Shown in pieces: positions 7,000 through 29,768 of a DNA stretch of 64,000 nucleotides. This DNA is from Streptomyces venezuelae (GTDB taxonomy: Bacteria; Actinomycetota; Actinomycetes; Streptomycetales; Streptomycetaceae): NCBI RefSeq assembly GCF_008642315.1, contig NZ_CP029192.1:1674001-1738000 (forward strand), given 5' to 3'. The number at the start of each line of letters is the position of its first letter. Position 1 is the stretch's first letter. Made by a program: the position numbers and the translations under genes. Below the pieces are notes generated by a model. It ran no database searches. It was not told the origin of the DNA and saw only the letters and a list, made by a program, of their open reading frames with translations.

Positions 7000-8115
7000 T
7001 CAGCCGCCCAGCTCCTGGTGGCGGGCCGCCAGCTTGGCCGCGCCGTCCTCGGTCAGCGAACCGAACAGGCGCAGCCGGGAGATGCCGCCGTCCGGGAAGA
7101 TGTCGATGCGGACGTGCGTGCCGACGACCGGCGCGTCCAGGACGAAACGGTGGTTGGTGTCGGGCTGCAGGCGGGTGCGGGGCAGCGCCTCGACCCACTC
7201 GCCCGACGCGCCGTCGCGCACCGAAAGGGCCGCCCAGCCCGCCGAGTTGCCCTTGAGGTAGGCGGTGTCGATCTCGACCACGCGGATCTCGGACTGCTGG
7301 ACGAGCTGGTAGCGGATCCAGTCGTTGCCGGTGTCGCGGCGGCGGCGGGTCTCCCAGCCGTCGTCCATCTTGCGGGAGCGGCCCGGCTGGATGGTGTTGG
7401 TGGCCGGGGAGTAGAAGCGGTCGGACGCATCCTCGACCTGGCCGCCGTTCTCCAGGGCGACGACGTCGAACGTGCCGAGCGCGGCGAGCCACTTGGGGTC
7501 GGCGACGACCTCGCCGTACACGCGCAGACGGGCGATGCCGCCGTCCGGGTGCTGGTTGACACGCAGGTGCGTGAAGCGCTGCTCGATGTCGACGGCGAAG
7601 CCGTTGGCGGCGTGGCCGCCGACGGGCGTGCGCGGGACGAGGGTCGTCCACTTCACGTCGTCGGCGCAGAGCTCCTCGGGCGTCGGCGAACCGTCGACGC
7701 TGGTGCCCTCGACGGACACGGCCTGCGGGTAGTTGCCGCGGAAGTGGGCGGTGTCGATGACGATGCCGCGTACGATGCCGGGCGCGCCGAGCCGTACGAG
7801 AGCCCAGTCGTGGTCGTCCTGGGTGGGCCACGGGTGCTCGCCCGAGACACCACGCCTGCGGCGGGTCTCCCAGCCGTCCATGACCTTGCCCTTGTGGCCG
7901 AAGTGCTCGGGGTCGAACACGGCCGGGTGGGCGAGCAGCAGGTTCTCGCGCATCGCGAAGAACTCGTCGTTGGCGGCGATCACACCGGCGCCGAGCTGCC
8001 GGTCGGCGAGGTTGGCGTACTGGGTGAAGGGGAAGTCGGCCGTGCGGTAGTCGGCGTAGGGCTCGCCGCCGCCGTAGGGGCTCGCGTCGCCGGTGAAGGA
8101 AGGTATCGCCGTCAC
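7000..8115 (-). CDS. alc: Allantoicase
   Basis: 371-aa enzyme that hydrolyses allantoate to ureidoglycolate and urea in ureide breakdown. It consists of two homologous jelly-roll repeats, each starting with the family signature: KVMDGWETRRRRG in the first half and KMDDGWETRRRRD in the second. Each repeat also contains the WALVRLG/IRYQLVQ strand and HLRVNQHPDGGIARLRVYGE-like end (in the second repeat HVRIDIFPDGGISRLRLFG). It starts with GTG at 8115, 4 nt after the allantoinase stop, so it is the second gene of an allB-alc operon closed by the hairpin at 6946. Confidence 0.96.
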   Translation of the reverse strand: MTAIPSFTGDASPYGGGEPYADYRTADFPFTQYANLADRQLGAGVIAANDEFFAMRENLLLAHPAVFDPEHFGHKGKVMDGWETRRRRGVSGEHPWPTQDDHDWALVRLGAPGIVRGIVIDTAHFRGNYPQAVSVEGTSVDGSPTPEELCADDVKWTTLVPRTPVGGHAANGFAVDIEQRFTHLRVNQHPDGGIARLRVYGEVVADPKWLAALGTFDVVALENGGQVEDASDRFYSPATNTIQPGRSRKMDDGWETRRRRDTGNDWIRYQLVQQSEIRVVEIDTAYLKGNSAGWAALSVRDGASGEWVEALPRTRLQPDTNHRFVLDAPVVGTHVRIDIFPDGGISRLRLFGSLTEDGAAKLAARHQELGG

Positions 8116-8119
8116 TGTT

Positions 8120-9535
8120 TCAGTTGTTCCTTTCCAGAAGTCGGCCTGCGGGTTCGCTGAACTCGCCGCCGTGCAGGATGCGTTCGCCGCGCAGCCAGGT
8201 GGACTTCACGACGCCGCTGAGGGTCTTGCCCGCGTACGCCGTGACTCGGTTCCGGTGCTGCAGCTCCGCGGGGTCCACGGTGAAGGTCTCGTCGGGCGCG
8301 AGGACCGCGAAGTCGGCGTCGCGGCCGGCCTCGATGGCGCCCTTCTGGTCGAGTCCGACCAGTTGTGCGGTGCGCGTGGACATCCAGCGCACCACGTCCT
8401 CGAGGGAGTGACCGCGCTTCCTGGCCTCGGTCCAGACGGCGGGCAGGCTCAGCTGGAGTCCGGAGATGCCGCCCCACGCGGTCGCGAAGTCGTCGGTCTT
8501 GAGGTCTGCGGTGGAGGGAGAGTGGTCCGTGACGACGCAGTCGATGGTGCCGTCCGCGAGCGCCTCCCACAGCAGGTCCTGGTTGCCGGCCTCACGGATG
8601 GGCGGGCAGCACTTGAACTCGCTGGCGCCGTCCGGGACTTCCTCGGCGGTCAGGGTGAGGTAGTGCGGGCAGGTCTCGACGGTCAGCTGTACACCCTCGC
8701 GCTTGGCGGCGGCGACGAGCGGCAGCGCGTCGGAGGAGGACAGGTGCAGGACGTGCACGCGGGCGCCGAGCCGCTTGGCGACGGCGATGAGCCCCTCGAT
8801 CGCGGTGTCCTCGGAGATACGGGGCCGGGTCTGGAGGTAGTCCGCGTACTTGGGGCCGCTCTTGTGCGGGGCGGCGTCCAGCTCGTGCGGGTCCTCGGCG
8901 TGCACGATCAGGAGCCCGCCGAACCCGGCGATCTCGGCCATGGAGGCGGTGAGCTGGTCCTGGTTCAGCTCGGGGAACTCGTCGACGCCCGAGGGCGAGA
9001 GGAAGCACTTGAAGCCGTAGACCCCGGCGTCGTGCAGCGGCTTGAGGTCCTGGACGTTGTCGGGCAGGGCGCCGCCCCAGAAGCCGACGTCGATGTGCGC
9101 CTTGGTGCGGGCGACGTCCTGCTTGGTGCGCAGGTTGTCGACGGTCGTCGTCGGCGGCAGGGAGTTGAGGGGCATGTCGACGAGGGTGGTGATGCCGCCG
9201 GCGGCCGCGGCGCGGGTGGCGGTCCAGAAGCCCTCCCACTCCGTGCGGCCCGGGTCGTTCACGTGGACGTGCGTGTCGACGAGGCCGGGGAGCAGCGTGT
9301 CGTCGCCGAGGTCCTCCAGGCGGGCGCCGTCCGGCACCTCGGCGTCGTACGCGTCGACGGCCACGATCTTTCCGCCGGACACGGCGACCGAGGCGGCCCG
9401 GGTGCCCTCAGGGGTGATGACGCGGGTCGAGCGGAGCACCAGTTGCACGTTCGCACCCGTCGCAGCCGTCGCACCTGCCGCATCCGCCGCACTCGCGCCG
9501 GCTGTCGCGTCCACGTGCACGTCCTTTTCGGACAC
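8120..9535 (-). CDS. allB: Allantoinase
   Basis: 471-aa cyclic amidohydrolase converting allantoin to allantoate. Metal-site motifs are in order: [16 protein letters not shown] (HxH), the carboxylated-lysine segment [10 protein letters not shown], the ligand His of [15 protein letters not shown], and the Asp of [10 protein letters not shown]. The C-terminus has the expected [18 protein letters not shown]. The first 28 residues are a low-complexity Ala-rich extension not typical of shorter allantoinases. GTG 9535 has AAAGGGGA upstream. It leads the operon with allantoicase and faces the divergent regulator gene across an operator-rich 366-bp region. Confidence 0.96.
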
Positions 9536-14781: not shown

Positions 14782-16401
14782 ATGTCCGCACTAGCGCCGT
14801 CGCCGCTGGCCATCGTCGACGCAGAGCCCCTGCCCCGGCAGGAAGAGGTGCTCACCGACGCGGCCCTCGCCTTTGTGGCCGAGCTGCACCGGCAGTTCAC
14901 GCCCCGGCGTGACGAGCTCCTCGCCCGCCGTGCCGAGCGCCGCGCGGAGATCGCCCGCACCTCCACCCTGGACTTCCTCCCGGAGACCGCCGCGGTCCGC
15001 GAGGACGACTCCTGGAAGGTCGCGCCGGCCCCGGCCGCGCTGAACGACCGCCGCGTGGAGATCACGGGCCCGACCGACCGCAAGATGACCATCAACGCCC
15101 TGAACTCGGGCGCGAAGGTCTGGCTCGCGGACTTCGAGGACGCCTCGGCTCCCACCTGGGAGAACGTGGTCCTCGGCCAGCTCAACCTCACCGACGCCTA
15201 CGAGCGCCGCATCGACTTCACGGACGAGCGCAGCGGCAAGTCGTACGCGCTGAAGGGCGCCGACGAGCTCGCCACCGTCGTCATGCGTCCGCGCGGCTGG
15301 CACCTGGACGAGCGTCACCTTCAGGTCGAGGGCCGCGCGGTCCCCGGCGCGCTGGTCGACTTCGGCCTGTACTTCTTCCACAACGCCAAGCGCCTCATCG
15401 AACTCGGCAAGGGCCCGTACTTCTACCTCCCGAAGACGGAGTCGTACCTGGAGGCCCGCCTCTGGAACGACATCTTCGTCTTCGCGCAGGACTACGTCGG
15501 CATCCCGCAGGGCACGGTCCGCGCCACCGTCCTCATCGAGACGATCACGGCCGCGTACCAGATGGAGGAGATCCTCTACGAGCTGCGCGACCACGCCTCC
15601 GGCCTGAACGCGGGCCGCTGGGACTACCTCTTCTCCATCGTCAAGAACTTCCGTGACGGCGGCTCGAAGTTCGTCCTGCCGGACCGCAACCTGGTGACGA
15701 TGACCGCCCCGTTCATGCGGGCGTACACCGAACTCCTCGTCCGCACCTGCCACAAGCGCGGCGCGCACGCGATCGGCGGCATGGCCGCGTTCATCCCGTC
15801 CCGCAAGGACGCGGAGGTCAACAAGGTCGCGTTCGAGAAGGTCGCGAACGACAAGGACCGCGAGGCCGGGGACGGCTTCGACGGCTCGTGGGTGGCCCAC
15901 CCCGACCTGGTCCCGATCGCCATGAAGTCCTTCGACGCGGTCCTGGGCGACAAGCCCAACCAGAAGGACCGGCTGCGCGAGGACGTCTCGGTCGCGCCCG
16001 GTGACCTGATCGCCATCGACTCCCTCGACGCGAAGCCCACCTACGACGGCCTGGTCAACGCCGTCCAGGTCGGCATCCGCTACATCGAGGCGTGGCTGCG
16101 CGGCCTCGGCGCCGTCGCCATCTTCAACCTGATGGAGGACGCCGCCACCGCCGAGATCTCCCGCTCCCAGATCTGGCAGTGGATCAACGCGGGCGTCGTC
16201 TTCGAGACGGGCGAGACGGCCACGGCCGACCTGGCCCGCAAGGTCGCCGCCGAGGAGCTCGCCGCGATCCGCGAGGAGATCGGCGACGAGGCCTTCGCGT
16301 CCGGCAAGTGGCAGCAGGCCCACGACCTCCTCCTCCAGCTCTCCCTGGACGCGGACTACGCCGACTTCCTGACCCTCCCCGCGTACGAGCAGCTGCGCTG
16401 A
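14782..16401 (+). CDS. aceB: Malate synthase A
   Basis: 539-aa enzyme condensing glyoxylate with acetyl-CoA to malate. Length and motifs match the A isoform (short, without the extra domain of isoform G): INALNSGAKVWLADFEDAS, VVMRPRGWHLDERHL, YFYLPKTESYLEARLWNDIF, ATVLIETITAAYQMEEILYE, HAIGGMAAFIPSRKD and the C-terminal GLGAVAIFNLMEDAATAEIS. ATG 14782 follows AAGGAAGTG. It serves as the sink for glyoxylate released from allantoin (or by isocitrate lyase, not in the window) and carries the operators of the allantoin genes. Confidence 0.97.
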   Translation: MSALAPSPLAIVDAEPLPRQEEVLTDAALAFVAELHRQFTPRRDELLARRAERRAEIARTSTLDFLPETAAVREDDSWKVAPAPAALNDRRVEITGPTDRKMTINALNSGAKVWLADFEDASAPTWENVVLGQLNLTDAYERRIDFTDERSGKSYALKGADELATVVMRPRGWHLDERHLQVEGRAVPGALVDFGLYFFHNAKRLIELGKGPYFYLPKTESYLEARLWNDIFVFAQDYVGIPQGTVRATVLIETITAAYQMEEILYELRDHASGLNAGRWDYLFSIVKNFRDGGSKFVLPDRNLVTMTAPFMRAYTELLVRTCHKRGAHAIGGMAAFIPSRKDAEVNKVAFEKVANDKDREAGDGFDGSWVAHPDLVPIAMKSFDAVLGDKPNQKDRLREDVSVAPGDLIAIDSLDAKPTYDGLVNAVQVGIRYIEAWLRGLGAVAIFNLMEDAATAEISRSQIWQWINAGVVFETGETATADLARKVAAEELAAIREEIGDEAFASGKWQQAHDLLLQLSLDADYADFLTLPAYEQLR

Positions 16402-16671: not shown

Positions 16672-19600
16672 ATGTGGAGGCGCGCGCGTCGGCGCGGCGG
16701 GACAGGGGCATTGGCGAGCCTGATGAGTGTGGCGGTCGTGGCCGGCCTCGCCCCTGCGGCGGAAGCCGCGGGGGCCACGCCGGCCGCATCTGCGGCCACG
16801 AACTCCGCGAATGCGGGTTCCGCCGCCGAACAGGACACTGTCGAGGCGGCGTTGGCGTCGGCCAAGCGCACGGGAAAACCCGTCGAGGTGACCTCGCAAC
16901 GCGGTGAATCCCGCGATGTATATGCGACACCTGACGGGAACTTGGAGGCACGGGAGTATCTCCGCCCCGTTCGAACCCGGGTGGGCGAGCACTGGAACTC
17001 AATCGACACCGACCTTGTGAAGTCGTCCAATGGACTCGTCGCCCCGAAGGCGACGACGCTCGGGCTTGAGTTCTCTGGCGGCGGAGACGCCCCCTTGGTA
17101 CGGATGACGAAGGCCGGGCGCGAGCTGGCACTGTCATGGCCGAGCCGGCTGCCCGCCCCCAGAGTCGAGGGTTCGACCGCCACCTACGCCGATGTACTGC
17201 CCGATGTGGACCTGCGAATGGGTGCGCAGGAAGACGGCTTCACTCAGCTGCTGGTGGTGAAGTCCGCCAAAGCGGCGCGGAGTTCGGAACTCGCGCAGCT
17301 GCGGCTCCGGCTGGCGACCGAAGGTGTGGAGGTGCGGAAGACCCCCGATGGCGAGCTCCAAGCCGTCGACAGGGGCGCCAAGGGCGTGGTGTTCGAGGCG
17401 CCGAAGCCGATGATGTGGGACTCCAGCCCGGGGCCGGGCAGCACGGCTAGCACGCGCTCGGCGGCGTTCAAGGCCTCAAGACCGTCACAGAACGGCGCTC
17501 ACCGGGCTGAGGGCGAGCCCGCAGCGGGCGACTCCGGCAAACTCGCACCCGTCGAGGTGGATGTGCCCGACGGCAAGGAACTGGTGCTGACCCCTGACGC
17601 AAAAACGCTGAAGGCCAAGGACACCACGTACCCGGTGTTCATCGACCCGCAGTGGTCCTCGCCACAAGCCAGGGCGTGGACGATGGCATCGAAGCACTGG
17701 GACAGTTCGCCGCAATGGAAGTTCAACGGCGAGCATGACGCCGGCCTGGGTTACTGCAACTGGTACTACTGCAAGCCGCATGACACCAAACGGCTCTTCT
17801 ACCGCATCCCCGTCTCCACCTTCGCCGGAAAGTCGGTCCTGTCGGCCGAGTTCGTGGTCCGCAACACCTGGTCGGCCTCCTGCGACAAGCGAGAGGTGGA
17901 GCTGTGGCGGACCAAGGACATCTCATCGTCCACCACGTGGAACTCACAGAACGCATCCGGATTCTGGAAGAAGCGGCTGGCCTCTGCGTCCTTCGCTCAC
18001 GGCTTCTCCGGCTGCGCCGCGAAGGACGCCGAATTCTCCGTGACATCAGCCCTGCAGGCTGCGGCTGACGGTCGGGACAAGACGATGACGTTCGGGCTGC
18101 GAGCCGCTGACGAGGCGGACGCGTACGGCTGGAAGCGGTTCTCGGACAAGGCGTTTCTGCGCGTCAAGTACAACCGCCCGCCCGCGCAGCTCAAGAGCTC
18201 GCAGCTGAGCATGGAATACGGCGGCGCCTGCAAGAAGTCCGGGAACGCCGCGCACGTGCGCACATTGGGGAAGATCTACGCCAACGACGTAAGGGACCCG
18301 GACGGCGACACCGTCTCGGTGCAGTTCCAGGCCAAGTGGGACGGCGGCAGCTGGAAGCCGAAGCGGACCTCGGCCAAGAAGTCCGGAAACAACATCTTCG
18401 CCGTCGGCCTACCGTCCTCGATCCCGACGAACAAGCAGATCAATTGGTACGCACGCGTCTACGACGGGGCGCAGTACTCGCCTTGGTCCTACGCCGGGAA
18501 TCCAACGGCCTGCTACTTCGTGTACGACACCAAGGTCCCCAAGGCGCCGACGGTCACCTCGAGCGACTATCCGCCCTCCGACCCCGAGGACCCGAACGAC
18601 CCCTGGTACGACGGGGTGGGCAAGTACGGATCGTTCGCGCTGAAGGCCGCCGACAGTGACGTCACCTCTTACCGGTACGGCATCAATCACGACCCCAGTC
18701 CGAAGAACAAGATGGCCACTTCCGGAGGCTCAGTGAAGTCCGCGCGGGCGCTGCCTGCCAAGCCGGGGCTGAACTTCATCACGGCCCAAGCCTTCGACAG
18801 CGCGGGCAACGGCAGCGAAATCCGCACGTACCAGTACCGTGTGAAAGCCGGGCAACCGGAGCGGGCCACCTGGCAACTGGACGAGACCGCGGGTGCCGGC
18901 GAGGCCAAGGGGACAACCCCGTCACGCACCGCACAACTGCACGGCGGGGCCACCCCAGGTGTGCCCGGCGTTCAAGGCACAGCCGTCGCTTTCAACGGAA
19001 CGGACGGTTATGCCTCTACGGACATTCCCATAGTCGACACCAAGGGCGGGTTTTCCGTTTCGGCCTGGGCACAGTTGTCCCGTATTCCCGATGGCACCGC
19101 CGTCGTCGCCACGCAGCCGGGTAACCACAAGCCTGGCTTCGAGCTCTATTACTCCTCGTCCTACGACCGCTGGGTGTTCAACCAGTACGAGTCCGACTCC
19201 GCCGGGGCCCGAGCGGTCCGCGCAATGGCAGGCGAGCCCGGCGGCGTGACGGCCGGCAAGTGGACCCACCTGGTCGGCTCCTACGATTCGGCGCGCGATG
19301 TCCTCGAGCTGTTCGTCGACGGCAAGCTGGTCGGCCGGACAGGCCACAGCAATCCGTGGGAAGCACGCCGCGGCCTTCAGCTCGGAGCCGGTTCCTACAG
19401 CGGGTCCCCCGCAGGGTTCTTCCCCGGCACGATCGATGCCGTCCAGCTGTTCGACAAGCCGTTGGCCCAGGACGAAGTCGACAAGCTGCACACACAACAG
19501 AGCATCGGTGACCCGGGTCGTCCCGCGACAGCAATCTTTGATATGGACGAGGCAGCAGACGCGAGGGAGGTCTCGGGGTACGGCGGCGTGCTCCCCGCCG

Positions 19601-20943
19601 AGTACCACGGCGGCGTCACGACCGGTGTGGCTGGCGTCTCGGGCAAGGCCACGACGTTCAACGGAACCGACGGTTACGCCCGGATCGGCCGGGTCAGCGG
19701 TCCGCATGTGAACACGTCACGGAGCTTCACCGTTTCCGCATGGGCCAAGCTCGACAAGAAACCCGGCGGGGCAGCGGTCATCGCCGCGCAGGCGGGCAAG
19801 GAACGCCCTGGATTCGAGCTGTATTACTCCTCCGCCTACGACCGGTGGGCAGTGAACCAGTATTCCTCCGACACGGCCGACGCGAAACCGATCCGCGCCA
19901 TGCAACAGGACGGCGCCGGTGCCCAGGTGAAGAAGTGGGTGCATCTGGTGGGTGTGCACGACACCGTCGCCGACACCCTGACCCTGTACGTCGACGGAGT
20001 CGAGGCCGGGTCGACGAAGCTGTCCGGGGCGTTCTACGCGAACCAGTCCATGTACTTGGGCGCGAGCAATTACGGCGGCAAGGTGGCCGCTCACTTCCCT
20101 GGCAGCATCGACGACGTACGTCTTCTCGACCGCCCGGTCTCGGCCGAAGAGGTCCAGCAGATGTTCCGCCAACGCCCGCTCGTCAAGGGCCGCTGGAACT
20201 TCGAGGGCGGCAGCACCAGTAGCCCGGCCACCACACCGGACTCGTCGCCGGAGAATCGTCCGATGGGTCTGTACGGCGGTGCCCAGCTCGGCGAGGGCAT
20301 GATCAACCTGCAGGGGCTCGAGCTGAACGGCACGGACGCGTACGCGGCCACCTCTTCGATGCCCATGGACACCAGCGGCAGTTTCACCGCCACCGCCTGG
20401 GCCAGGACCGCGGCGCTCCCGGAGCATGATGTCTCCGTGGTCAGTGGTGAGGGCGGTACGCGCAGCTCTTTCGACGTGCGCTTCGTCCCGGACACCAAGG
20501 ATCCCGAGGGGCTCGGGCGTTGGGAGCTCTCGCTGCCCGCCGAGGACGGCACCGACGCTGTGGTCACCCGGCTGGCCAACACAGAGTTCTTCGACGCCCG
20601 CGAGTGGAACCACCTCGCGGTGGTTTATGACGGCTTCGCCAAGGAGGCCCGTCTTTACGTCAACGGCGTGCTGCAGGAAGTCGCCTGCGGGGACGCGGAC
20701 GGTGACGGGGACGCGGACGACACCGCGTGCCAGGACCTGATCGCTTGGGGTGACAACGCCCTGACCTTCAAGGCCACCAAGTCCCTGCAGGTCGGCAGGG
20801 CGAAGGGCGACGCCAAGGGGACGTACTTCCCCGGTTCCATCGATGACGTGTGGACGTTCCAGGGTGCCCTGACGGACGCACAGATCGAGAAACTGGCCGG
20901 CTCCCTGACCGGCCTCCCCACCGCAGTGCCGGGCGACAGCTGA
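16672..20943 (+). CDS. Large secreted protein with DNRLRE-like region and three LamG domains
   Basis: 1423-aa exported protein. A signal peptide covers about residues 1-33 (RRARRRGG, hydrophobic core, ending AAEAAG). A region seen in actinobacterial wall-associated/RHS-linked proteins follows, and about residues 335-500 resemble DNRLRE domains (VFIDPQWSS, STFAGKSVLSAEFVVRNTWS). Three LamG/concanavalin-like jelly rolls occupy about 732-945, 950-1165 and 1175-1415; the first two are close duplicates (FNGTDGYA, GFELYYSSxYDRW, FPGxIDxVxLxD). Probably binds glycans or displays the partner RHS protein, whose gene follows 98 nt later. ATG 16672; visible codon use is less GC-extreme than in flanking genes. 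Confidence 0.85.
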   Translation: MWRRARRRGGTGALASLMSVAVVAGLAPAAEAAGATPAASAATNSANAGSAAEQDTVEAALASAKRTGKPVEVTSQRGESRDVYATPDGNLEAREYLRPVRTRVGEHWNSIDTDLVKSSNGLVAPKATTLGLEFSGGGDAPLVRMTKAGRELALSWPSRLPAPRVEGSTATYADVLPDVDLRMGAQEDGFTQLLVVKSAKAARSSELAQLRLRLATEGVEVRKTPDGELQAVDRGAKGVVFEAPKPMMWDSSPGPGSTASTRSAAFKASRPSQNGAHRAEGEPAAGDSGKLAPVEVDVPDGKELVLTPDAKTLKAKDTTYPVFIDPQWSSPQARAWTMASKHWDSSPQWKFNGEHDAGLGYCNWYYCKPHDTKRLFYRIPVSTFAGKSVLSAEFVVRNTWSASCDKREVELWRTKDISSSTTWNSQNASGFWKKRLASASFAHGFSGCAAKDAEFSVTSALQAAADGRDKTMTFGLRAADEADAYGWKRFSDKAFLRVKYNRPPAQLKSSQLSMEYGGACKKSGNAAHVRTLGKIYANDVRDPDGDTVSVQFQAKWDGGSWKPKRTSAKKSGNNIFAVGLPSSIPTNKQINWYARVYDGAQYSPWSYAGNPTACYFVYDTKVPKAPTVTSSDYPPSDPEDPNDPWYDGVGKYGSFALKAADSDVTSYRYGINHDPSPKNKMATSGGSVKSARALPAKPGLNFITAQAFDSAGNGSEIRTYQYRVKAGQPERATWQLDETAGAGEAKGTTPSRTAQLHGGATPGVPGVQGTAVAFNGTDGYASTDIPIVDTKGGFSVSAWAQLSRIPDGTAVVATQPGNHKPGFELYYSSSYDRWVFNQYESDSAGARAVRAMAGEPGGVTAGKWTHLVGSYDSARDVLELFVDGKLVGRTGHSNPWEARRGLQLGAGSYSGSPAGFFPGTIDAVQLFDKPLAQDEVDKLHTQQSIGDPGRPATAIFDMDEAADAREVSGYGGVLPAEYHGGVTTGVAGVSGKATTFNGTDGYARIGRVSGPHVNTSRSFTVSAWAKLDKKPGGAAVIAAQAGKERPGFELYYSSAYDRWAVNQYSSDTADAKPIRAMQQDGAGAQVKKWVHLVGVHDTVADTLTLYVDGVEAGSTKLSGAFYANQSMYLGASNYGGKVAAHFPGSIDDVRLLDRPVSAEEVQQMFRQRPLVKGRWNFEGGSTSSPATTPDSSPENRPMGLYGGAQLGEGMINLQGLELNGTDAYAATSSMPMDTSGSFTATAWARTAALPEHDVSVVSGEGGTRSSFDVRFVPDTKDPEGLGRWELSLPAEDGTDAVVTRLANTEFFDAREWNHLAVVYDGFAKEARLYVNGVLQEVACGDADGDGDADDTACQDLIAWGDNALTFKATKSLQVGRAKGDAKGTYFPGSIDDVWTFQGALTDAQIEKLAGSLTGLPTAVPGDS

Positions 20944-21041: not shown

Positions 21042-24000
21042 ATGAACGGCAGAACAAGGCCCCGCCGATTCGCCGCGCTGCGGCGAACAGCGGCGCTGGT
21101 GGTGTCCACCGCGTTGGTGGGCACACTGCTGCAGGCCGCCGCACCAGCGGCGGCAGCGCAAGGCAACAACCGCCCGAAGCTTCCCTCCGCGGAGAATCCG
21201 ATCGAGGGCAGCGACGGCAGCAGGAGCACACCGCGAACGGTCTCCAAGGGGCCGAGGACTCCGGGCAGAGCGCCGAAGGCGGCCTGGCCGAAGCCGGGGT
21301 CCGCCGTGGTGCGCATCCCTGATGCATCGCCGAAGACCGCCGGTGCGCCCGTCGGGGCGAAGGGGCTACCGCTCGCACTGGGTGCCCCTCCGGCTCTGTC
21401 CACCAAGAGCGCGGGCCGGCGGGCCGGAGCCGCCGAGCCGGCCGCTCAGGGCAAGGTCACGGCCCAGGTGCTGAGCAGGAAGGCCGCGGAGCGGGCGGGT
21501 GTGAACGGCGTGCTGTTCACCCTGGAGAACGGTGACGCGAAAAACGACAGGCACGGCGAAGTCCGGGCCGAGCTCGACTACTCCGGCTTCGCCGAGGCTT
21601 TCGGTGGGGGCTACGCCTCCCGGCTCACGCTCGTCGAGCTTCCGGCCTGTGTCCTGGACACGCCGTCGAAGCAACAGTGCCGCCACACGCCCGAGCCGGT
21701 GCGGACGATCAACGACACGGAGAAGCAGACCCTGACGGCAAACGGGGTAGCCCTTCGTGCGTCGGGGCCGACCGTGCTGGCAGCCGTCGCGGACGACAAG
21801 AGTGCCGGTGGTGACTACAAGGCGACCTCACTGTCGCCCTCCGCCACCTGGGACACCAATCTCAACACCGGTGACTTCTCTTGGTCGTACGAGATGCCGG
21901 TGCCAGAGGTACCGGGCGAGCTGAAGCCAGAGGTGGGCCTGTCCTACTCCTCCGGGGCCATAGACGGGCGGACCGGGACCACGAACAACCAGTCGTCCTG
22001 GGCCGGTGACGGCTTCGACTTGTGGCCCGGATATATCGAGCGCCGCTACAAGCCGTGCGCCGACGACGGACAGCAGAACGCGGACGGCAACAAGCCCGGC
22101 GACCTGTGCTGGGGCTACGACAACGCATTCATCACCTTCAACGGAAAGGGCGGTGAGCTGGTCCCGGCCGGTGGCGACGAGTTCAAGTTCAAGCAGGACG
22201 ACGGCAGCCGCATCAAGAGGCTGACGTCCGCCGACCGCGGCAACGGCGACAACGACGGCGAGTACTGGCGTCTGACCGACCCCGACGGCGTGCGCTACTA
22301 CTTCGGGTACAACCGGCTGCCCGGCTGGAAGGACGGCAGGGCCACCACGGGGTCGACCTGGACGGCTCCCGTGTTCGGCAACGACAAGGACGAGCCCTGC
22401 CACAAGGCAGCCTTCGCCGACTCCTGGTGTCAGCAGGCCTGGCGGTGGAACCTCGACTACGTCGTCGACCCTCATGGCAACGCCATCGCGTACTACTACG
22501 ACCAGGAGAAGAATTCCTATGGCCGCAACCTGAAGGCCAAGAACAACAGCCGCTACGTACGCGGTGGTTCGCTGAACCGAATCGAGTACGGCCTCAAGTC
22601 AACCTCGATGTACGGCACCAAGCCGCTGGCCAAGGTCGACTTCACCACTGCAGAACGCTGTCTGCCGGATGGCAAGACGGACTGCAGGGACATCGGCAAG
22701 GACGCCTTCTACTGGTATGACACGCCGTGGGACATGAACTGCACGGAGACGGAGGAGTGCGACAAGGGCCGCCTCTCCCCGACGTTCTTCACCCGTAAGC
22801 GACTGACCGGGGTCACCACCCAGGTTCTGAACGGCACCACTTACAGCAACGTCGACTCCTGGAAACTGGACCACCGATGGGGCCAGGCAGATGTGGATTA
22901 CCAGCTGCTGCTCGACTCCGTGCAGCACTCCGGACACACCGCCAAGCCCACCCTGACGCTGCCGAAGACCACCTTCGCGTACACCCAACTCGCCAACCGC
23001 CTGGACAAGGTGGGCGACGGCTACGCGCCGTTCATCAAGTCCCGGCTGTCCACGATCGCCGACGAGTCCGGCGGCCAGGTCGACGTCAACTACTCGGCAC
23101 CGGCCTGCGACGCGAGCGCACTCCCCACGCCGCACTCGAACACCACCCGTTGCTTCCCGCAGTACGTCGGAGGCTCCAGCTCCGACGATCCCGAACGCCA
23201 GTGGTTCAACAAATACGTCGTCACCTCGACGACCACCTCCGACCGCACCGGGGGCGCTCCGGACGCCGTCACCTCGTACGACTACCTAGGCGGCGGCGCC
23301 TGGCACTATGACGATGACGACGGCCTGACCAAGAAGAAGTTCAAGACCTGGTCACAGTGGCGCGGCTATGGTCACGTCCGGGTGAGGACCGGCGGCCAAG
23401 GCGGAGGCGACGCCCTCAAGTCACAGGAGGAGTCCTACTTCCTGCGGGGCATGGACGGTGACCGCAAGGACGACTCCGGCGGCACCAGGTCCGTCAGCGT
23501 CCAGCTCGGCGAGGGCGAAGGTGACCCGATCACCGACCATGAGGCGACAGCCGGATTCGGCTACAAGACGGTTTCCTTCTCCGGGCCGGGCGGCAAGGTC
23601 CTGACCAAGACCGTGAACCGTCCTTGGCACCACGAGACCGCGAAGAAGGTTCGTGACTGGGGGACGGTGACCGCCAGCTTCACGGGCGCAGACCGCTCCA
23701 AGACGTGGACGTCGCTCGACGACGGTGCGGGCAAGGAATGGCGGACCACTTCGACGGCCACCCGGTTCGACACCGTAGCGGGCCGTGTCACCCAGGTCGA
23801 CGACTTCGGAGACAGCACCTCGGCGGCCGACAATCAGTGCACCCGCACCACCTACGCCACCAACACCGACGACAACATCCTCACCCTGCCCTCGCGGGTG
23901 GAAGCCGTCGCGGTCAAGTGCGCCGACGCCCCCGACCGTGCCGAGCAGGTCCTCTCCGACGTGCGTACCGCGTACGACGGCGGCGCTTACGGTGCGGCGC

Positions 24001-27000
24001 CCACCAAAGGTGACGCCACTACGATCGCGACGCTGAAGAAGCACGACGGCGCCAAGGCCACCTACCTGGAATCCGGTGTCACTTTCGACGCCTACGGTCG
24101 CAAGCTGACGTCCACGGACATCACAGCGGACGTCACCGTCACGGGCGAAGGCAATCCGGTGCGCTCCGTGCGCAAGGACGGCCGCACCACGACCACCGGC
24201 TACAGCCCCGCCACCGGTTTCGCGAGCAAGGTCACCGAGACCGGTCCGCCGGTCAAGGCTGCCGATCCCGGGTCGGCGCAGACCTCGGTCACCGAGATGG
24301 AGCCGCTGCGCGGACAGCCGAAGGCGACGGTGGACACCAACGGCAAGCGCACCGAGATGACGTACGACGCGTTCGGCCGTTCGGCGAAGGTCTGGCTTGC
24401 CGACCGCAGGACCAGCCAGACGCCCAGCTACCAGTTCACCTACTTCGTGGACGAGGGCAAGCCGGTCGCGGTCCGCACCCAGACCCTGAACAACGAAGGC
24501 GGGCAGGTCGCCTCCTACACGCTGTACGACGGATTTCTGCGCGAGCGCCAGGTCCAGCAACCGGGCCCCGAGGGCGGTCGCCTACTCGCCGACTCCTTCT
24601 ATGACGAACGAGGGCTGAACAGCAAGACGTTCGCTCCGTACTACACCGAGGGCCCGCCCAAGCGGGAACTGTTCAAACCGGCTGACGCGATGAGCGTGGA
24701 GTCGCAGACCCGCACCACCTACGACGGTCTCGGCCGCGCCGTGGAGGAGCGGCAGATCGCCGGAAACGGTGACGGCGGCAAGGAGCTGGCCACCACCAGG
24801 ACCCTCTACGGCGGCGACCGCACCACGGTCGTCCCGCCCGAGGGCGCCACGGCGACCACCACCCTTACCGATGCCCGGGGGCAGGCGACTGAACTCCGTC
24901 AGCACCACACACGCAGCGCCGGTGCGGACTTCGACACCACGAAGTACGCCTTCACCCCACGCGGCGAACTGCGGAAGGTGACCGACCCGGCAGGCAATGT
25001 CTGGACGTACGAGTACGACCAATCGGGTCGCCAGACCCGTACTACCGACCCCGACAGGGGCACCACCAAGAGCACCTATGACGACCGGGACCAGCTGACC
25101 ACGACCACCGATCAGCGCGGAACGGTACTGGTCAGCGTCTACGACAATCTGGGCCGCAAGACCGAACTGCACAAGGACAGCGCGTCGGGTGAGCTGCGCG
25201 CCAAGTGGACTTACGACACCGTGGCCGGCGCCAAGGGCCAGCTGTCCGAGTCCACGCGCTACGTGGACGGCGCCGCCTACACCTCCAAGGTCACCGGCTA
25301 CGACCGGCAGTACCGGCCCACGAAGACCGCCGTGGTGATCCCCGGAAAGGAAGGGGCCCTGGCCGGCACCTACCAGAGCGGCACCACGTACAAGCCCTCC
25401 GGCCTGGTGGGCACTGTGAGCTACTCCGAGGCGGGCTCGCTGCCCGGGGGAAGTTTCACGACCACCTATGAAAAGGAGACGCTCCGCCCCGTCTCGATCC
25501 TGGGCGACGGTTTTCAGGCAGACACCAGCTACTCGTGGACCGGAAAGGCGCTCCAGTACCAGTTGGCCGGCACGGGCGGCAAGAAGATCTGGGCCACCAA
25601 CACCTATGAGTGGGGAACACAGCGTCTGGCCACCGCCCGGGTCGACCGCGAGGATCAGAGCGGTGTCGATCAGCACGACACCTACCGCTACGACCAGGCG
25701 GGCAACGTCTTGTCCGTCTCGGATGTCTCCCGCACAGGCACCGACACCCAGTGCTTCAGCTATGACCATCTGCGGCGGATGACCGAGGCGTGGACTCAGG
25801 GCGACAAGACCTGTGCGACGGCTCCGACGGCGGGCAGGACGGGTGGCCCGGCCCCGTACTGGCACTCCTACACCTATGACAAGGCCGGCAACCGCACGAC
25901 CGAAACCCTGCACGACCTCGCGGGAGACGGCAAGCAGGACACCAGGCGGACCTACGACTACCCCAAGCCCGGCACACCGCAGCCACACACGCTGACCTCG
26001 GTCACCACCGACAAGCCGGGCGGCACCGCCACCAAGGACTCCTACGGCTACGACGAGACGGGCAACACCGACAGCCGCACTCTGCACGGCGACACTCAGC
26101 GCCTGAGCTGGGACGCCGAGGGCCATCTCGCCAAGGTCACCGAACCCGGCGAGGACGGCAAGGAGGAGGTCACCGAGTACGTCTACGACCCCGACGGCAA
26201 CCGTCTGATCGGACGCACCCCGACCGAGACCACGCTCTACCTCGGGCACACCGAAGTCACCCTGGCCAACGGCGCGGACAAGACCAAGGCCACCCGCTAC
26301 ACCCCCCTGGGCGGGGGTCACCAAGCCGTCAAGGACGACAACGGCAACGTCACCTTCACCACCGCCGATCACCAGGGCACCGGACAACTCTCCGTCGCCG
26401 CGGCCGATCTGAAGCTGACCCAGCGCCGCACGCTTCCCTTCGGCGGGCCGCGCGGTGAAACTCCGAAGTCCTGGCCCGGCACCAAGGGGTTCGTCGGCGG
26501 CACCGACGACACCAAGTCCACCGGCCTGACCCATCTGGGCGCACGCGAGTACGACCCGACGACGGGCCGCTTCCTCTCCGTCGACCCAGTCATGGACCTG
26601 ACGGATCCTCAGCAGATCAACGGTTACACCTACGGCAACAACAACCCTGTCACCTTCAGCGATCCGACGGGACGCCTCTTCGGCTGCCTGATGTGCGCGG
26701 TCGCGAAACTCACCAAAACTGCCATCAAGACGTTCCACAAGGTGGTCTCGGCCAACCGGGGCGGCTACCGCGGCGGCGGCGGAGCGAATCGTGGCGGATA
26801 CCGCAGTCGCGGATACGGCGGCGGGCACGCCAGCAGCGCCGTCTACCGCGGGGGCGGGACAAGGAGCATGTCCCGGACCTCGTACGGGATCGACGGTGGT
26901 TTCGGTGTCCTGAACCATGGCGTTTTCCGCCACTTGAACGACTTCTTCTCCGGCGGTGGCGCAGCCGAGGCGGTGAAGGACTTCGTTCTGCCTGACGTCA

Positions 27001-27974
27001 ATTCCTGGAAGTCATGCGGGCAGCACCCCGGCGTCAGCATGGACTGCTTCGACGTGACCATGGATGCCCCCTTTGGTAAGTGGCTCAAACCGTTCAAGGG
27101 CACTATCAAGAAATTGGTCAAGGGGGTGGAGGACGGAGCAGGGTCGGCCGCCAAGGCGAAGAAGGGCAGGCCCTCGGGCTGCAAGTGCTTCCTCGCCGGC
27201 ACCGGTGTCCTCATGGCCGACGGGTCGTCCAAGAACATCGAGGACGTCGAACTCGGCGACAAGGTCCTGGCCACCGACCCGCAAACGGGCGAGACCAGCG
27301 AACGCGAAGTCACGGCGACGATCGTCACCGACAACGACAAACAGTTCACCGAGCTGACCATCGCCACCCCCGAGGGCAGCGAGAAGCTGACGGCCACGTA
27401 TGAGCACCCCTTCTGGTCGGTCGAAAAGAAGGACTGGGTGAAGGCCGGTGACCTCAAGCCGGGCATGACCCTGCGCACGGACGAGGGCCGCACGGTCAGC
27501 GTCACAGCGGCTCGCCAGTACCGAGATCACGCACGCACCTACAACCTCACCGTTGAGGGTCTCCACACGTACTATGTGCTGGCGGGGCAGACTCCGGTTC
27601 TAGTTCACAATTCCAACTGCCCGCACACTGGCGGGTTTAAGGTGGGCGTCAGCGCGGACGAGATCGCCGATATCAACCGCGGTTTCGGTGGGGAAACGTT
27701 GTTGAGCGGTTCGCCAGCAAACACCCTGGCTAACGCCAGTCGCTACAACAGGTTCTGGGACAAGTCGGCAGTTGTGATCCGGGATATTGCTGGGAGCCAC
27801 ATGTTCAACAATGGGAATAAGCGAACTGCTCAGGCTACCGTTGAACAGTTGATGCAACGGAACGGCATCACGAGCGGCCCCACTTCTGCTGACCTGCGAG
27901 GTGTCATCGACAGGGTAGGTAAAGGTCAGCTGCATGACGTCAGCGATATCTCGGCAGCCTTGAGAGGCTATTGA
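21042..27974 (+). CDS. Secreted RHS-repeat polymorphic toxin with Hint and C-terminal Doc/Fic-like domain
   Basis: 2310-aa protein. A signal peptide covers about residues 1-40 (ends QAAAPAAAAQ). An SpvB/RHS N-terminal region (GDFSWSYEMPVPEVPGELKP, EVGLSYSSGAIDGRTG) precedes many YD repeats to about 1870, ending with the core signature LGAREYDPTTGRFLSVDPV. A Gly/Arg/Tyr-rich linker leads to a Hint autoprocessing domain (about 2047-2190, CKCFLAGTGVLMADGS to TPVLVHNS). The last 120 residues are the toxin: SHMFNNGNKRTAQATVEQLM (His2253) matches the Doc active-site pattern HxFx(D)(A/G)NKR, but the metal-binding acidic residue is Asn. Doc phosphorylates EF-Tu; other Fic enzymes AMPylate. Start ATG 21042; the stop overlaps the immunity gene. 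G+C drops in the toxin part. Confidence 0.88.
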   Translation: MNGRTRPRRFAALRRTAALVVSTALVGTLLQAAAPAAAAQGNNRPKLPSAENPIEGSDGSRSTPRTVSKGPRTPGRAPKAAWPKPGSAVVRIPDASPKTAGAPVGAKGLPLALGAPPALSTKSAGRRAGAAEPAAQGKVTAQVLSRKAAERAGVNGVLFTLENGDAKNDRHGEVRAELDYSGFAEAFGGGYASRLTLVELPACVLDTPSKQQCRHTPEPVRTINDTEKQTLTANGVALRASGPTVLAAVADDKSAGGDYKATSLSPSATWDTNLNTGDFSWSYEMPVPEVPGELKPEVGLSYSSGAIDGRTGTTNNQSSWAGDGFDLWPGYIERRYKPCADDGQQNADGNKPGDLCWGYDNAFITFNGKGGELVPAGGDEFKFKQDDGSRIKRLTSADRGNGDNDGEYWRLTDPDGVRYYFGYNRLPGWKDGRATTGSTWTAPVFGNDKDEPCHKAAFADSWCQQAWRWNLDYVVDPHGNAIAYYYDQEKNSYGRNLKAKNNSRYVRGGSLNRIEYGLKSTSMYGTKPLAKVDFTTAERCLPDGKTDCRDIGKDAFYWYDTPWDMNCTETEECDKGRLSPTFFTRKRLTGVTTQVLNGTTYSNVDSWKLDHRWGQADVDYQLLLDSVQHSGHTAKPTLTLPKTTFAYTQLANRLDKVGDGYAPFIKSRLSTIADESGGQVDVNYSAPACDASALPTPHSNTTRCFPQYVGGSSSDDPERQWFNKYVVTSTTTSDRTGGAPDAVTSYDYLGGGAWHYDDDDGLTKKKFKTWSQWRGYGHVRVRTGGQGGGDALKSQEESYFLRGMDGDRKDDSGGTRSVSVQLGEGEGDPITDHEATAGFGYKTVSFSGPGGKVLTKTVNRPWHHETAKKVRDWGTVTASFTGADRSKTWTSLDDGAGKEWRTTSTATRFDTVAGRVTQVDDFGDSTSAADNQCTRTTYATNTDDNILTLPSRVEAVAVKCADAPDRAEQVLSDVRTAYDGGAYGAAPTKGDATTIATLKKHDGAKATYLESGVTFDAYGRKLTSTDITADVTVTGEGNPVRSVRKDGRTTTTGYSPATGFASKVTETGPPVKAADPGSAQTSVTEMEPLRGQPKATVDTNGKRTEMTYDAFGRSAKVWLADRRTSQTPSYQFTYFVDEGKPVAVRTQTLNNEGGQVASYTLYDGFLRERQVQQPGPEGGRLLADSFYDERGLNSKTFAPYYTEGPPKRELFKPADAMSVESQTRTTYDGLGRAVEERQIAGNGDGGKELATTRTLYGGDRTTVVPPEGATATTTLTDARGQATELRQHHTRSAGADFDTTKYAFTPRGELRKVTDPAGNVWTYEYDQSGRQTRTTDPDRGTTKSTYDDRDQLTTTTDQRGTVLVSVYDNLGRKTELHKDSASGELRAKWTYDTVAGAKGQLSESTRYVDGAAYTSKVTGYDRQYRPTKTAVVIPGKEGALAGTYQSGTTYKPSGLVGTVSYSEAGSLPGGSFTTTYEKETLRPVSILGDGFQADTSYSWTGKALQYQLAGTGGKKIWATNTYEWGTQRLATARVDREDQSGVDQHDTYRYDQAGNVLSVSDVSRTGTDTQCFSYDHLRRMTEAWTQGDKTCATAPTAGRTGGPAPYWHSYTYDKAGNRTTETLHDLAGDGKQDTRRTYDYPKPGTPQPHTLTSVTTDKPGGTATKDSYGYDETGNTDSRTLHGDTQRLSWDAEGHLAKVTEPGEDGKEEVTEYVYDPDGNRLIGRTPTETTLYLGHTEVTLANGADKTKATRYTPLGGGHQAVKDDNGNVTFTTADHQGTGQLSVAAADLKLTQRRTLPFGGPRGETPKSWPGTKGFVGGTDDTKSTGLTHLGAREYDPTTGRFLSVDPVMDLTDPQQINGYTYGNNNPVTFSDPTGRLFGCLMCAVAKLTKTAIKTFHKVVSANRGGYRGGGGANRGGYRSRGYGGGHASSAVYRGGGTRSMSRTSYGIDGGFGVLNHGVFRHLNDFFSGGGAAEAVKDFVLPDVNSWKSCGQHPGVSMDCFDVTMDAPFGKWLKPFKGTIKKLVKGVEDGAGSAAKAKKGRPSGCKCFLAGTGVLMADGSSKNIEDVELGDKVLATDPQTGETSEREVTATIVTDNDKQFTELTIATPEGSEKLTATYEHPFWSVEKKDWVKAGDLKPGMTLRTDEGRTVSVTAARQYRDHARTYNLTVEGLHTYYVLAGQTPVLVHNSNCPHTGGFKVGVSADEIADINRGFGGETLLSGSPANTLANASRYNRFWDKSAVVIRDIAGSHMFNNGNKRTAQATVEQLMQRNGITSGPTSADLRGVIDRVGKGQLHDVSDISAALRGY

Positions 27975-28228
27975 TGGGAGCAAAAGTGATGGATATCGAG
28001 CAGCTTATGGACAAGTTGGGCCGCTCTGGCGTCACTGTCATCCTCAAGGTGGATGATGAGAGAATGACGGAAGGTGGAGAGCCTTGGACGTTGGTGATGT
28101 CCGGGTCGGGGCTAGGTGAGCAGGGGTTTATCCGTGCCGAATCTTCGAGCCTCAATGACTGCCTGGAGCAAGGGTTCGCACAGCTGCGCGCCAGGCCCGG
28201 CGACTGGGAATGGATGACTGAAATCTAG
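27974..28228 (+). CDS. Small putative immunity protein for the Doc/Fic-like toxin
   Basis: 84-aa acidic cytosolic protein (MDIEQLMDKLGRSGVTVILK, then EPWTLVMSGSGLGEQGFIRA and a C-terminal RPGDWEWMTEI). It begins at ATG 27974, whose A is the last base of the toxin stop codon (TGATG). A downstream ATG at 27992 is possible. Direct coupling of a small acidic gene to the toxin-bearing end of an RHS gene is the standard layout of polymorphic toxin immunity genes; no named immunity family was recognised. It is followed by a strong terminator. Base composition is lower in G+C than the flanking chromosome, like the toxin domain. Confidence 0.65.
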   Translation: MGAKVMDIEQLMDKLGRSGVTVILKVDDERMTEGGEPWTLVMSGSGLGEQGFIRAESSSLNDCLEQGFAQLRARPGDWEWMTEI

Positions 28229-28240
28229 TAGTCATCGAAA

Positions 28241-28273
28241 TGAGGCCCTCCCGAGAATTCAGGGAGGGCCTCA
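28241..28273 (+). terminator. Terminator after the RHS toxin-immunity pair
   Basis: Perfect 12-bp stem TGAGGCCCTCCC (28241-28252) / GGGAGGGCCTCA (28262-28273) with a 9-nt loop, 12 nt after the immunity gene stop and followed by CTCCGTTT. Confidence 0.85.
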
Positions 28274-28291
28274 CTCCGTTTGACAGCAACG

Positions 28292-29220
28292 TCAGCGGAC
28301 GACGGCTGCGGCGGGTGGGTCGTCGGGGGTGTCGGTCGGGTTGAGGGCGTCGCCGAGGGGTCGATGGCCCGGCGCTGGAGGCGGAATCGGACGTGGGCGT
28401 AGACGTCGGCGGTGACACCAATGTGGGCGTGGTCGAGGAGTTCCTCGATGACGACGGGCCTACGCCCTGTTCCAGGAGCAGCGTGGCCGTCGAGTGGCGG
28501 AGATCGTGGAAGCGGTTCGTCCGGAGCCCGGCCGCGTAGCGGAAGCGGCGGGTGAGGTTGATGGGGCGAGCGGCCTGCCCTTCGAGGCGGTGAAGACGAG
28601 CCCGGTGTCCGCCCAGCCCGGTCCGGCCGCCTGACGATCCTCCCACTGCCATTCCTGGTGCATCTTGAGGGAGTTGATGCATTCGGTGGAGAGGACGATG
28701 CGGCGTTCAGAGGCGAAGGTTCTGGTCTTCAGTACGGTCAGGCCCTGGCTGCGGGTGCGCTGGAGGGAGCGGTGGACAGTTGCGGTGCCGCTGTCGAGGT
28801 CGAGGTCTTCCCAGTGGAGGCCGAGGAGTTCGCCCTTGCGCAGTCCGGTGCGCAGGGCGAGCTTCTTGGCGCCGAGGCCGGGGGTGAGGTGGAGGCGGAT
28901 GGAGGCGGCGTAGCGGGTGTGGGCGTTCTACCGAAGGTGGTGAACGGCGACGCCGTTGGGCCAGTACGTGAGGTAGGCGCTCACGGTACTGCCGGGCGCT
29001 GCGACCGGCAGGCCGCGGTTGCTGGCGGCAATCTGCTCCGTGAGCTTCGCCAGGGCCTCCTTCCTGGTCGTGCCGTTGACGCGGACGCGCCTGCGGGCGT
29101 TGCCGGGGACGAGGACACATAAGGCGGCTTCCCTGCTGTTGTCCTTGCGCTGGTAGACGGTTCCGTCTCCGTCCGCACGGGTGCGGGAGCGGCGGACGAA
29201 GTGGGGCGGGCTGTGGTCAT
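28292..29220 (-). pseudogene. Decayed tyrosine recombinase (integrase) gene
   Basis: Pieces of one actinobacterial phage/ICE-type integrase lie in order but in different frames. From the N-terminus: DGDGTVYQRKDNSR..RVRVNGTTRKEALAKLTEQI (start ATG 29220 is in another frame, so a frameshift follows), SAYLTYW, a stop/frameshift near 28930, HTRYAASIRLHLTPGLG joined directly to LALRTGLRKGELLGLHWEDL (internal deletion of roughly 100 residues), GLVFTASKGRPLAP, a frameshift to NRFHDLRHSTATLLLEQGV, and another to HAHIGVTADVYAHV. Catalytic Arg, His-x-x-Arg and Tyr are still recognisable, but the gene cannot make an enzyme. It is a scar of an integrative element. Confidence 0.88.
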
Positions 29221-29311
29221 CAGACGGCGGCCTCCTGTTCGAGGCGGGTGCGGATGAAGTCGGTGAGGGCGTGGGTGGGGATGCGGCGGGCTCGGCCGAC
29301 GGTAATCGAGG
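29220..29311 (-). pseudogene. C-terminal remnant of an excisionase/MerR-like HTH protein
   Basis: Minus-strand frame reading SITVGRARRIPTHALTDFIR then TRLEQEAAV and a stop. This matches the end of small excisionase-type HTH proteins, which usually close with a V/KxGRxRRIP strand and a short helix. Its stop overlaps the integrase ATG (TGATG at 29222-29218), the usual xis-int coupling. The N-terminal helix-turn-helix is missing; homology stops where the displaced toxin tail begins on the other strand, near 29305-29311, so a recombination junction is likely there. Confidence 0.6.
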
Positions 29312-29481
29312 TTCGCGACTACCTCGCGGACCCGGATGCTTACGACAACAAGGGTTTCCTGAAAAACGCACCGACCGAAGAGGTTCGTCAGCGAATCATT
29401 GACGGGCGCACACGGCATTTGAGGAAGGAAATACAAACCTTCCACGACAATATTGCGAAAATTAACAGGAGTGTTTGCTAG
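29305..29481 (+). pseudogene. Displaced C-terminal tail of a second polymorphic toxin
   Basis: Open frame encoding about 58 residues (IEVRDYLADPDAYDNKGFLK, NAPTEEVRQRIIDGRTRHLR, KEIQTFHDNIAKINRSVC) with no start codon of its own in the homologous part; the preceding in-frame codons are antisense to the excisionase relic. The helical, charged sequence looks like the end of a toxin domain, not a whole protein. It ends with TAG overlapping the GTG of the next small gene, exactly as a toxin tail overlaps its immunity gene. G+C near 50% over 29401-29460 contrasts with the chromosome. The toxin family was not recognised. Confidence 0.55.
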
Positions 29482-29768
29482 TGGTAGCGATCCCCGCAGA
29501 CAAGCTTAAAGACGTACTCTGCCTACTTTTGGAGAAAATTCACTCCGGGGAACAGGTGCTGGAAATCAACAAAGAGGCGTTCTGGTCCGTTCCCCCGGAT
29601 CGGGCTTACGAAATCTACAGCCAGCCCGAAGACCTCACGATCGGTATGATTTCTGAGTCGTGGGGCCACCTGGAAGACATGCTCTCCGACCCTGATCGTG
29701 TCGTGGGGTACGGATTCGTCTGGCTGTCCGATGTGCTTCGCGCCATTGGCGACGAATCAACCTCCTGA
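29481..29768 (+). CDS. Orphan putative immunity protein
   Basis: 95-aa acidic soluble protein (VVAIPADKLKDVLCLLLEKI, IYSQPEDLTIGMISESWGHL, VGYGFVWLSDVLRAIGDE). It starts at GTG 29481 inside the TAG stop of the displaced toxin tail (TAGTG) and has AGGAG at 29468-29472. Size, acidity, low G+C and position behind a toxin tail all fit an immunity protein kept after its toxin was displaced; no named family recognised. The next 202 nt (29769-29970) before the sigma factor gene hold no evident gene; the sigma factor promoter should lie there. Confidence 0.6.
   Translation: MVAIPADKLKDVLCLLLEKIHSGEQVLEINKEAFWSVPPDRAYEIYSQPEDLTIGMISESWGHLEDMLSDPDRVVGYGFVWLSDVLRAIGDESTS

Follow-up and report, generated by a model that had tools for sequence, protein, structure and literature searches.

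The C-terminal tail of a large RHS protein of Streptomyces venezuelae is probably an exchangeable antibacterial module of a polymorphic toxin, which would act on the elongation factor EF-Tu in a manner similar to phage P1 Doc. The gene lies within a window of 64,000 nucleotides, the whole stretch of DNA that was analysed (contig NZ_CP029192.1, positions 1,674,001 to 1,738,000), in a genome of 8.94 Mb, and encodes an RHS/YD-repeat polymorphic toxin of 2310 amino acids (21042..27974, plus strand, ATG at 21042 and stop at 27974). This reading draws on the anatomy of the gene, a fold model, the conservation of the tail family, the borders of the cassette and an EF-Tu paralogue without Thr382 beside a sibling tail; from these, we infer export, cleavage, delivery, kinase activity, target and immunity. 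A wider proposal has even chances of being correct: exported Doc kinases would be a weapon of Streptomyces against EF-Tu, and one lineage would protect itself by a non-phosphorylatable, GTPase-degenerate EF-Tu mimic encoded on a mobile toxin-decoy cassette. According to the proposed mechanism, the RHS shell would be exported and its Hint domain would cut after Asn2190, thereby freeing a Doc-fold enzyme of about 120 residues in the recipient cell. The motif with His2253, Asn2259, Lys2260 and Arg2261 would bind ATP in the Doc orientation, as in phage P1 Doc, and a phosphate would be put on EF-Tu, most likely at the equivalent of Thr382, so that translation stops. The producer would be protected by a protein of 84 amino acids, the product of an overlapping gene; in one relative, a degenerate EF-Tu paralogue that is non-phosphorylatable at position 382 would protect instead, probably as a decoy.

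The Doc-like tail comprises residues 2191-2310 (27612..27971, plus strand). As stated in an initial annotation of this DNA, it carries the Fic/Doc motif HMFNNGNKR at residues 2253-2261 (27798..27824, plus strand) and is Doc-like rather than an AMPylating Fic enzyme, on which the fold model, the lysine at motif position 8 and the profile search agree. The Fic/DOC family PF02661 scored 19.5 bits in the whole-protein scan, below its cut-off of 24, and 24.2 bits, barely above it, in the genome search. Structure prediction and an alignment of homologous tails, both suggested as checks by that annotation, gave a Doc fold with its six-helix core and an invariant asparagine at position 5, respectively. 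All 20 tails compared (the window, L015-L028, L005, L031, L067, L035 and the plasmid locus L080) fit the pattern H-M-[FY]-[ND]-N-G-[NS]-K-R, and the motif is therefore not a product of chance. Duplicates on the same contig were counted once (L003/L015, L004/L022, L029/L017, L030/L019, L032/L028 and L033/L026); a 39-residue tail remnant without the motif (L034) and the distant Doc-like open reading frames (ORFs) L006-L014, L036, L038-L041 and L068 were left out of the count. In the 18 tails used for codon and position statistics (all but L035 and L080), the asparagine at position 5 is encoded by AAT 12 times and by AAC six times, which shows conservation of the residue despite drift of its codon. 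Lys8 and Arg9 are each present in 18 of 18, and position 4 is Asn in 14 tails and Asp in four (L005, L024, L025 and L067). The exceptions to the window's motif elsewhere are a serine at position 7 in L024 and a tyrosine at position 3 in L035.

The asparagine at position 5 had been taken for the anomalous loss of a metal ligand, which implied a change of chemistry or of target, away from EF-Tu. The suspected odd residue turns out to be ordinary: the Doc consensus published in PMC4177925, HxFx(D/N)(A/G)NKR, permits Asn at this position, and a solved chain of the Doc family, 9vzc_A, reads HCFYNANKR. The same paper states that Lys at position 8 forces an inverted binding of ATP, leading to phosphorylation. 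Doc-like ORFs with the asparagine were also found in five other actinobacterial genomes. The Asn form gave 6 matches in 6 of 396 Actinomycetota genomes, including the window, and the Asp form 63 matches in 60 of 336; reversed-pattern controls were 0 among the matches listed. Asn is the rarer form in Actinomycetota. Judged from these sequences, it is a real, selected and known variant of Doc, and by itself it is no evidence of another chemistry. A sharper, testable lead takes its place: a kinase fold that stops translation, on RHS and ALF carriers, with an EF-Tu mimic in a sibling cassette as possible self-protection.

This sibling cassette is found in a genome of the same genus (G018:C9), in which a tail of 61% identity with the motif HMFDNGNKR (L005) is fused to an ALF-Hint protein at locus L042. 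A homologue of the 84-amino-acid protein was not found in the 16 kb of L042; the toxin-immunity position behind the Doc tail is occupied by a degenerate EF-Tu paralogue of 399 amino acids (L042:8178-9377), whose GTG start at 8178 was picked for its GGAGG site. The paralogue has 41% identity with E. coli TufA, relative to which residues 33-39 and 49-62 are absent; it carries T25S, H84R and an alanine at position 382. Measured against a functional EF-Tu, it is thus without Thr61 of switch I and has Arg in place of the catalytic His84, and it scores 276.6 bits against TIGR00485, which has a cut-off of 522.4 bits. Compared with the main EF-Tu of its own genome (L048), the G domain is 34.5%, domain 2 48.9% and domain 3 47.4% identical, whereas the tuf3-type paralogue L049 shows the reverse pattern (69.6, 54.3 and 53.8%, respectively). 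In an inspection of 18 ORFs of the EF-Tu family, namely that of E. coli, ten main EF-Tus that are nearly identical, six tuf3-like proteins and the L042 paralogue, Thr382 was missing solely in the L042 paralogue, which retains the P-loop Asp although Thr382 is lost. Another degenerate, tuf3-like EF-Tu, L051 (G018:C1), has the P-loop GHHRHGKT and still contains Thr382. T382 is the residue of E. coli EF-Tu to which Doc adds a phosphate (PMC5851678); the T382A paralogue is indirect evidence that the tail may phosphorylate EF-Tu at Thr382.

L042:3990-15750 comprises two tandem ALF-Hint toxins, one with the Doc tail and one with a TreTu tail (TreTu_C, 109 bits). A self-comparison revealed that both modules share the upstream DNA, the ALF region (75.7%), the Hint region (75.9%), a TriTu-like gene (92.6%) and the DNA beyond it. 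Module 1 contains the Doc tail and the paralogue (7601-9390) where module 2 contains the TreTu tail (15067-15425). Other stretches, for example that between ALF and Hint, gave only short collinear alignments, and the modules therefore differ most clearly, though not exclusively, in the tail. The simplest history suggested by this alignment is that the Doc tail and the paralogue arrived jointly and displaced a TreTu tail, leaving the TriTu gene behind. If they arrived jointly, the Doc tail likely has the paralogue as its partner. Several points weigh against this pairing: it was seen at one locus, about 150 base pairs and a hairpin-like repeat separate the Doc tail from the paralogue, and at such divergence T382A could be the result of drift.

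The paralogue might also be unrelated to the Doc tail, either as a guard against the adjoining TreTu, which ADP-ribosylates EF-Tu, or as a decaying bystander, and it would then be uninformative on the target of Doc. A TriTu-like gene indeed follows the paralogue directly (24.4 bits, below the Pfam cut-off of 27), a TreTu_C module is its neighbour, and the target of TreTu is EF-Tu according to PMC10469887; both L042 toxins are presumed to act on EF-Tu. However, the near-identical TriTu-like gene of module 2 overlaps the end of the TreTu toxin with no paralogue between them, and the paralogue lies within the segment that would have arrived with the Doc tail. We take the site of TreTu to be Asp21 of the EF-Tu P-loop; the paralogue has kept this Asp and lost Thr382, and its ORF is open across 399 codons, which speaks against decay. 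An unrelated paralogue is hence rather unlikely.

It was further considered that the tail is a Doc-fold toxin with another chemistry (e.g., nucleotidyl transfer) or another target, and that the asparagine at position 5 marks this switch. The argument in its favour is that a residue which is a minority form in Actinomycetota, yet fixed in 20 of 20 tails, must be selected for something; moreover, the target could vary by branch, since the tail beside the EF-Tu paralogue has Asp4, as do only four of 18 tails. The other Asp4 tails (L024, L025 and L067), however, carry the usual 84-amino-acid gene, the asparagine falls within the Doc consensus and a solved Doc-family chain, Lys8 is invariant in the 18 tails, and a sibling tail is accompanied by a mimic of EF-Tu. 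We therefore regard a different chemistry or target as unlikely. That the tail of the window is a worn-out, inactive cassette is highly improbable: displaced tails do exist, as the L034 remnant demonstrates, but here the frame is open from the signal peptide to the immunity gene, the motif is invariant despite synonymous codon changes, and the immunity gene is conserved. A Doc-like module directed against EF-Tu thus remains the favoured reading. The kinase fold, familiar chiefly from toxin-antitoxin modules, would then be carried by RHS and ALF delivery proteins, and, should the mimic work, it would be a ready-made probe of how Doc recognizes EF-Tu.

The tail DNA of the window is 82-91% identical to that of L015, L016, L017, L019, L020 and L022, whereas the 450 bases upstream, which encode Hint, reach 60-72% and the following 1 kb 43-63%. 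Remoter tails are 75% (L027), 70% (L025) and 66% (L005) identical to that of the window. The guanine plus cytosine (G+C) content is 56.2% in the tail (27603-27974) and 56-57% in tail and 84-amino-acid gene together, versus 67.0% in the RHS core. Tails are found on RHS proteins with Hint (window, L017, L025 and L027), on RHS proteins with a Hint end or an intein splice block (L015 and L020), on eight ALF repeats with Hint (L042) and on eight ALF repeats with no Hint match, the layout of UmbC (L026); L016, L018, L019, L021 and L028 lay outside this carrier survey. Thus, the tail appears from sequence to be an exchangeable toxin module that moves as a cassette with its 84-amino-acid gene. A carrier, a processing domain, an exchangeable C-terminal toxin and a downstream partner gene are all present, as in RHS-class polymorphic toxins, with secretion, processing and immunity as presumed functions.

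The Hint domain (PT-HINT, residues 2049-2190; 27186..27611, plus strand) named in the initial annotation was confirmed by Pfam on the whole RHS protein (PT-HINT, 76.6 bits, cut-off 27.7), as was its RHS nature by matches to RHS repeats. Pfam and NCBIfam together matched RHS/YD repeats, the RHS core, PT-HINT and a C-terminal intein splice block (intein_Cterm, 22.1 bits in the Hint region). By eye, the Hint residues are seemingly intact; since the first Cys (Cys2049), the TxxH block TATYEHPFW and the VHN|S junction after residue 2190 are present, self-cleavage after Asn2190 and release of residues 2191-2310 would be expected. The N-terminal signal peptide, likewise claimed earlier, was judged by eye only. 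The reading frame is uninterrupted across signal, shell, Hint and tail, and likewise in the immunity gene. The start at 27100 that had been given for the feature is not a boundary; it lies inside the gene, upstream of Hint and out of frame.

The downstream partner gene, whose presence had been anticipated, encodes 84 amino acids (27974..28228, plus strand, 56.9% G+C), and its ATG overlaps the toxin stop (TGATG). It follows 19 of the 20 tails, the exception being L005/L042. In L034 (G412), an intact copy stands behind the 39-residue Doc-tail remnant as orphan immunity. The protein matched no Pfam family at E<=10 except SH3_18 (0.097); the copy on the plasmid bears the annotation 'hypothetical'. 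Imm23, SUKH and Imm13, families which Pfam presumably holds, gave no match at E<=10 in three proteins of this type. Its model, which is of high confidence (predicted local distance difference test, pLDDT, 88.4), has the order alpha-beta-alpha-beta-beta-alpha, and the structural comparison of this model yielded no clear relative. From position and co-inheritance only, it is predicted to be the immunity protein.

Directly upstream of the RHS gene, a protein of 1423 amino acids with four Laminin_G_3 stretches (16672-20943) might be a partner of the RHS shell. Behind the immunity gene, an 11-base-pair perfect inverted repeat with a 9-base loop (28242..28272, plus strand, by eye) is a possible terminator, which is missing from the output of the terminator scan. 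Broken pieces resembling a tyrosine recombinase/integrase, recognized by eye, lie just downstream of the cassette on the minus strand (28152-29445). Two small ORFs of 77 and 97 amino acids (29248-29768; third-position G+C 0.68-0.69) are without Pfam match; inspected by eye, they might be relics of a toxin tail and its immunity gene.

In comparison with known systems, the tail shares with P1 Doc the six-helix core, in the predicted model, and the motif HxFx(D/N)(A/G)NKR. In contrast to P1 Doc, it has Asn at position 5 and forms the C-terminus of a large protein of the RHS/Hint or ALF type; the partner of P1 Doc is Phd, whereas the 84-amino-acid protein is mixed alpha/beta and not Phd-like by Pfam. 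The window protein scores 27.3 bits against NCBIfam DOC_P1, below the curated cut-off of 38.65; of eight relatives scanned, seven reach 26.1-31 bits and L024 gives no match. Because the Phd partner and this cut-off both fail, the tail is not classed as phd-doc, although it is Doc-like in its presumed action. The new element is the EF-Tu mimic of the sibling cassette, not the export of a Doc toxin in itself: a catalogue of polymorphic toxins by Zhang et al. (2012, PMC3482391) already includes Doc domains, and its Tox-Doc foresaw this kind, with Doc/Fic-fold tails on secreted actinobacterial polymorphic toxins and immunity genes. The Tox-Doc table there, however, gives the motif HxFx[DE]GNxR, trafficking by type V and type VII secretion systems (T5SS; T7SS, WXG), caspase protease and FilH repeats, and Imm23/SUKH/Imm13 as immunity, whereas the present family has Asn at position 5 in all 20 tails, is carried by RHS+Hint or ALF proteins and comes with an immunity protein that lacks a Pfam match. 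General background is found in PMC2686095, PMC5033356, PMC8636562, PMC13324451 and PMC13018210. The words Fic, Doc and EF-Tu are absent from the main text of PMC11062931, which describes the Streptomyces umbrella toxin UmbC; the carrier of the window is an RHS shell, but in the relatives L026 and L042 the Doc tail is attached to UmbC-like 8xALF proteins. TreTu/TriTu, known from a Salmonella Rhs toxin, is an ADP-ribosyltransferase with a fold and chemistry unlike the Doc tail; it is likewise RHS- or ALF-borne with EF-Tu as presumed target, and a TreTu module adjoins the sibling Doc module.
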